Shown here: positions 45,755 through 46,099 of the stretch, piece after piece
Layout of the letters: every line of letters starts with the position of its first letter
Position numbering within the stretch: the first letter of the stretch is position 1
DNA from: Candidatus Rokuibacteriota bacterium
GTDB taxonomy: Bacteria; Methylomirabilota; Methylomirabilia; Rokubacteriales; CSP1-6
Assembly: GCA_003220435.1 (NCBI GenBank)
Contig: QHSL01000074.1
Location: 62,001-126,000, forward strand
Direction of reading: 5' to 3'
DNA length: 64,000 nt
Made by a program: the position numbers and the translations under genes
Notes under the pieces: generated by a model
Seen by the model: only the letters and a program-made list of their open reading frames with translations
What the model was told of the DNA's origin: nothing
Databases searched by the model: none

Positions 45755-45982
45755 TCAGCGTCGGGACTCGAGGAGGCGCGCGATCTCGCCGGGTGCCGGA
45801 ACGCGCCCGGCCTCGCGCTTGGAGAACACGGTGCGACCGTCGACGGTCACCGTCAGCTCTCCCAGGCCGCCCCAGCGGATCCTCGCCGGCTCGTGAAGAG
45901 TCGTCTGGAGCTCATCGCGGAGGCGGACCGCCTCCCGCCGCAAGTCCATTCAGAGTGCGCAGCGCTTGATCTCGATCTTCAT
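45755..45982 (-). CDS. Rdx/SelW-like selenoprotein (in-frame UGA read as selenocysteine)
   Basis: Read from ATG 45982 the gene gives MKIEIKRCAL, then TGA at 45952-45950 (codon 11), then MDLRREAVRL and on to GELTVTVDGRTVFSKREAGR and VPAPGEIARLLESRR, stop at 45755: 75 residues. With Sec at codon 11 the N-terminus has the C8-x-x-U11 redox motif after the first b-strand, exactly where SelT/SelW/SelH (Rdx) proteins have it, and the C-terminal VTVDGxxVFSKxxxGRxPxPGEI block is the family hallmark. A stem-loop with a GU apical loop follows the UGA (separate entry). Conventional annotation would give a truncated 64-residue product starting at the ATG after UGA. Likely a thioredoxin-like cytoplasmic redox protein. 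selA-selD genes are not in the window. Confidence 0.8.
45917..45938 (-). promoter_or_regulatory. SECIS-like stem-loop after the UGA codon
   Basis: Starting 12 nt after the UGA, the mRNA can pair GGAGGCG with CGCCUCC (7 bp) around a GUC loop, plus two further pairs across a bulged G. The apical G-U is about 22 nt downstream of UGA. Bacterial SECIS elements lie immediately after the UGA, with a small apical loop carrying G (often GU) about 16-37 nt away, so position, stem and loop fit. The hairpin is inside the coding sequence, as expected in bacteria. Confidence 0.65.
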
Positions 45983-46099
45983 GGTTCGCGTTTTACACAC
46001 AGATCATCGCTGAAGGCAAGTGTGGTATAGGGAACCTCCAACGGACGCAGCGAGTTAAACCGCGCGACATTGCACCATCCACCCACGAGGAGGAGACCC

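Follow-up and report, generated by a model that had tools for sequence, protein, structure and literature searches.

A predicted selenoprotein branch of the Rdx superfamily in Rokubacteriales, with relatives that carry UGA at both motif positions

An in-frame UGA within a conserved reading frame

We asked whether a short minus-strand frame that runs through an in-frame UGA encodes a selenoprotein whose active site is missed by ordinary gene calling. The frame lies in the window, by which we mean the whole stretch of 64,000 nucleotides analysed here. It opens with an ATG at 45982 and closes with a TGA stop at 45757-45755, and its single internal TGA, at 45952-45950, is codon 11. Reading through that codon gives MKIEIKRCALU-MDLRREAVRLRDELQTTLHEPARIRWGGLGELTVTVDGRTVFSKREAGRVPAPGEIARLLESRR, in which the residues after U begin MDLRREA. 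Frame and translation agree with the preliminary description of this DNA, which had placed the UGA of an ATG-initiated minus-strand frame at codon 11, in a C-x-x-U motif. That description had also expected gene calling to start after the UGA and lose the motif, and the mechanical list of open reading frames indeed holds a 64-aa frame opening with the ATG that directly follows the UGA. When the 64-kb window was scanned for further read-through candidates, nothing convincing emerged. The features of the gene are as follows.

45755..45982, minus strand: predicted selenoprotein gene of Rdx/SelW-like type, 75 aa, residue 11 being Sec; TGA serves as the terminal stop too
45980..45982, minus strand: start codon ATG; ATG, GTG or TTG in orthologues, and ATC in one (L024)
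45959..45961, minus strand: Cys8 codon TGC of C-x-x-U; TGA in four orthologues (U-x-x-U)
45950..45952, minus strand: predicted Sec11 codon TGA; invariant in 18/18 branch members
45755..45949, minus strand: 64-aa open reading frame of ordinary gene calling, from the ATG at codon 12

Among 60 genomes of the order, 17 carry the gene, counting that of the window, and these represent seven genera. Eight of the nine genomes in the genus of the window carry it, the exception being G018. TGA occupies codon 11 in all 17 orthologues, at identities down to 41%, and the downstream frames are intact. A Planctomycetota relative of the same branch (E 1.8e-22) has C-x-x-U and keeps the TGA as well; no other match near its score was found among 392 Planctomycetota genomes, and a search of 95 genomes of the phylum returned no further branch members, just other Rdx genes. 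The preliminary description had suggested looking for Cys homologues aligned at this position. Such C-x-x-C forms exist in the wider Rdx family, in two archaeal MAGs, but inside the branch none of the 17 Rokubacterial sequences and the one Planctomycetota sequence has Cys in place of Sec11.

Using the eight genomes of the genus, we compared codons 2-10 with the 30 nt before the start. Codons 2-10 have accumulated 0.17 changes per site, distributed 58/19/49 over codon positions 1/2/3 with second positions depleted, whereas the 30 nt before the start show 0.50 changes per site, spread evenly (138/123/148). By this substitution pattern, the codons ahead of the UGA are evolving as coding sequence. 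Where the preliminary description had allowed for close relatives with a stop and unconserved upstream codons, the relatives keep both the upstream coding sequence and the UGA.

A divergent branch of the Rdx superfamily

The Pfam Rdx domain (PF10262) matches the window protein across the UGA, over residues 2-72, with 31.0 bits against a gathering cut-off of 22.6, and is matched by all 17 orthologues at E<=0.01. When the part ahead of the UGA is removed, the match still reaches 25.7 bits, which bears out the Rdx-family C-terminus noticed earlier after the UGA; the higher score of the full protein indicates that the upstream part contributes to the match. The best NCBIfam match is SelTWH_Campy (NF041051; 43 bits, 3.9e-11), yet its equivalog cut-off is 88 bits and the window protein is no member of that Campylobacter equivalog. 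CXXU_selWTH (TIGR02174) scores 23.8 bits, under its curated cut-off of 34.2. Because it falls below both cut-offs, we file the window protein outside both families. A tree calculated with the two motif columns left out sets the branch apart from canonical Rdx with support of 100/100. The motifs also differ, being R-C-x-x-U-x-D-x-R-R-E-A in the window branch and Y-C-x-x-U-N-Y-x-P-R-A in canonical Rdx, a form found in Desulfobulbaceae, SAR324, Gemmatimonadetes, Acidobacteria and others. The window protein thus represents a divergent branch of the Rdx (SelT/SelW/SelH) superfamily.

We modelled the protein with AlphaFold2 on the 17-row alignment, substituting Cys for Sec. The model (pLDDT 91.7) has a thioredoxin-like fold in which Cys8-x-x-Sec11 sits in the loop between strand 1 (E3-7) and helix 1 (H12-29). 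In a Foldseek search with this model, the best PDB matches are the SelW-related proteins 3dex, 2fa8, 2obk and 2p0g, with TM up to 0.86, and the predicted fold is that of these solved SelW-related proteins.

Bacterial SelW-like selenoproteins (PF10262 Rdx, C-x-x-U) have been on record since the Sargasso Sea survey (PMC1088965) or earlier. The window protein is like them in fold, domain and small single-domain size, in having Sec at the second C-x-x-U position near the N-terminus, and in a SECIS just downstream. The window branch differs from them in its separate, fully supported position in the tree, in the scores of the window protein below the NCBIfam cut-offs, and in its inclusion of U-x-x-U members.

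A covarying hairpin downstream of the UGA

The hairpin that follows the UGA occupies the following position.

45919..45935, minus strand: candidate bSECIS hairpin, stem 45935-45929 / 45925-45919, loop GUC 45928-45926

This hairpin, GGAGGCG-GUC-CGCCUCC, has seven perfect pairs, and its loop begins 21 nt past the UGA. The 7-bp stem and GUC loop are therefore as the preliminary description gave them, with a spacing of 21 nt rather than about 22. By the published bSECIS rules (PMC13188914), the stem has 4-16 bp and the loop 3-9 nt, with a G within its first two positions; the spacing is 16-37 nt and the MFE no higher than -7.5 kcal/mol. The window hairpin lies within all of these limits, at -11.5 kcal/mol for the hairpin alone, and of the 18 branch members only one, L026 at -6.6, falls outside the energy limit. 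However, in this GC-rich window 17% of TGA trinucleotides have a hairpin that agrees with the same rules, and 4.4% have one at least as stable, so that the hairpin by itself is weak evidence.

Covariation is more informative. Pairing holds in 87% of cells over the 18 branch members, versus 40-52% in slid controls, and seven cells, in three pairs, have changed on both sides. Leu21 is encoded by CTC in 16/17, whereas the other Leu codons are mixed; in two sequences, L039 and L058, the partner base is C and Leu21 is CTG. We rely on covariation since the energy-based comparisons were too weak: the folding z-score of the whole stretch under dinucleotide shuffling is only -1.1, and against a synonymous-codon control the hairpin was only modestly more stable (mean z -0.4 to -0.8). 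The hairpin codons (EAVRL) are constrained by the protein sequence, and the modest excess on synonymous recoding indicates that protein sequence accounts for part of the hairpin. No Rfam family matched within the window at gathering score, so Rfam speaks neither for nor against it.

Selenocysteine machinery in the host genome

In the window genome, selA, selB and tRNA-Sec lie within 5 kb of one another on contig C138. The selA, selB, tRNA-Sec and selD genes score over their curated cut-offs, and ARAGORN gives the tRNA-Sec the anticodon TCA (UCA). Absence of selA, selB, selC and selD had been named beforehand as evidence against a selenoprotein; all four are present. SelD (L019, G000:C100:66727-67671) has a UGA in frame within the CAGU motif of its N-terminal part, and the selenophosphate synthetase is thus itself a selenoprotein in this genome. 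Beyond the window genome, selB is over its curated cut-off in 17/17 genomes carrying the gene, and selA in 53/59 genomes of the order. Rokubacteriales belong to the phylum Methylomirabilota (PMC8780371), for which a 2026 review describes one MAG that has 63 predicted selenoproteins (PMC13188914).

Two more Rdx genes with an in-frame UGA were seen in the window genome, one with C-G-E-U (L040, G000:C101:35947-36156) and one with C-V-A-U (L041, G000:C50:54458-54634).

Weighing the readings of the UGA

The locus is almost certainly a real selenoprotein gene of the Rdx superfamily, in which the UGA at codon 11 is predicted to be decoded as Sec. UGA conservation, the Rdx match, the Sec machinery and the covarying hairpin together support the overlooked Rdx/SelW-like selenoprotein that had been proposed here. 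We considered whether the true gene might instead be the 64-aa frame that begins with the ATG at codon 12, leaving the upstream codons as a leader. That frame exists and its product still matches Rdx, but the product would have neither strand 1 nor the redox motif, and no Shine-Dalgarno-like sequence is visible ahead of the codon-12 ATG. Of the 17 orthologues, just 5 have Met at codon 12, which together with the coding constraint on the codons ahead of the UGA disfavours a downstream start and makes it very unlikely.

DNA shows the codon and not the residue, and the UGA could in principle be read by suppression or as a residue other than Sec, such as Trp or Cys. Against this stand the full Sec pathway in the window genome, a motif position that is Sec or Cys throughout the Rdx family, the covariation of the SECIS-like hairpin, and the use of UGA as the gene's own stop codon; we consider such a reading even less probable than a downstream start. 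The genomes are metagenome assemblies, which would fit a premature TGA arising from a pseudogene or a sequencing error. Yet the TGA stands at the same codon in genomes of seven genera as well as in a Planctomycetota genome, with intact frames downstream, and the orthologues refute this explanation, to which we give practically no chance.

Returning to the selenoprotein reading, we infer that SelB with Sec-tRNA(Sec) would decode the UGA at codon 11, aided by the hairpin just downstream. The product would be a 75-aa protein of thioredoxin-like fold with a Cys8-x-x-Sec11 redox motif. It would most likely act as a small thiol oxidoreductase, cycling between the reduced thiol/selenol and a selenenylsulfide; in the four U-x-x-U relatives, with Sec predicted at the first position too, the couple would be a diselenide. 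Glutathione interaction has been reported for SelW (PMC1088965).

Relatives with UGA at both motif positions

Four orthologues have TGA at both motif positions. Three of them (L034 in G010, L036 in G008 and L037 in G009) come from three genomes of one genus, and the fourth (L039 in G057) from another family of the order. In the tree without motif columns the four fall in two places, and a single clade is rejected (p-AU 0.0055), in an alignment of 71 columns in which L039 is a long branch. The coding stretch before the first UGA is short in these genes, about seven codons, yet conserved. Their hairpin lies 17-20 nt past the second UGA and hence, with the 9-nt offset, 26-29 nt past the first, which puts one hairpin within range of both UGA codons. 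It is probable that, in this branch, Sec has replaced the remaining motif Cys in two separate lineages, giving a diselenide U-x-x-U Rdx whose two UGAs, nine nt apart, are decoded via one shared hairpin.

In the 2022 and 2026 catalogues of prokaryotic selenoproteins, Rdx appears solely in the single-Sec form C-x-x-U, whereas other families are the only ones given with U-x-x-U (PMC9312934, PMC13188914). Prx-like PF00578, MerA-like metal-binding NF041115 and the FmdB family share the arrangement of two Sec codons with two codons between them (PMC9312934, PMC13188914), but are protein families other than Rdx. No Rdx match in the 392 Planctomycetota genomes has two TGAs. Relative to the 2022 and 2026 catalogues, the U-x-x-U form of Rdx is new.

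Upstream element and gene neighbourhood

Upstream of the start codon we found one further feature.

45991..46019, minus strand: promoter-like element, TTGCCT (46019-46014), 17 nt, GTAAAA (45996-45991), with its end 8 nt ahead of the ATG

TTGCCT and the 17-nt spacing recur in 8/8 genomes of the genus that have the gene, with an AT-rich hexamer that is mostly TTAAAA or GTAAAA. Within the genus the element ends 8-10 nt ahead of the start codon, and there is no clear Shine-Dalgarno sequence. A sigma-70 consensus scan did not flag the element at 45991-46019. The arrangement suggests that the selenoprotein mRNA may be leaderless or near-leaderless. Orthologues of another genus, g8 (L032 and L033), have a GGGAGG/AGGAGG site instead.

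The neighbours of the gene in the window are an NMT1-like binding protein gene and an HbpS-like gene. The U-x-x-U Rdx gene of genus g5 is flanked by genes for an ApbA/PanE-like reductase and a metallo-beta-lactamase-fold hydrolase (L053 2931-5082; also L051 and L056), and a similar hydrolase gene lies downstream of the Rdx gene in genus g8. None of the gene neighbours examined is conserved across the branch, and we therefore propose no functional partner.

Significance

With this locus, the SelW-like selenoproteins gain a branch that had gone unrecognised, in a soil lineage of a phylum known to be selenoprotein-rich, and automated annotation of the gene would cut off exactly the active site. 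Members with C-x-x-U and members with U-x-x-U form natural matched pairs for asking what benefit a second selenium brings, and the U-x-x-U genes let one ask how a single bacterial SECIS can serve two neighbouring UGA codons.
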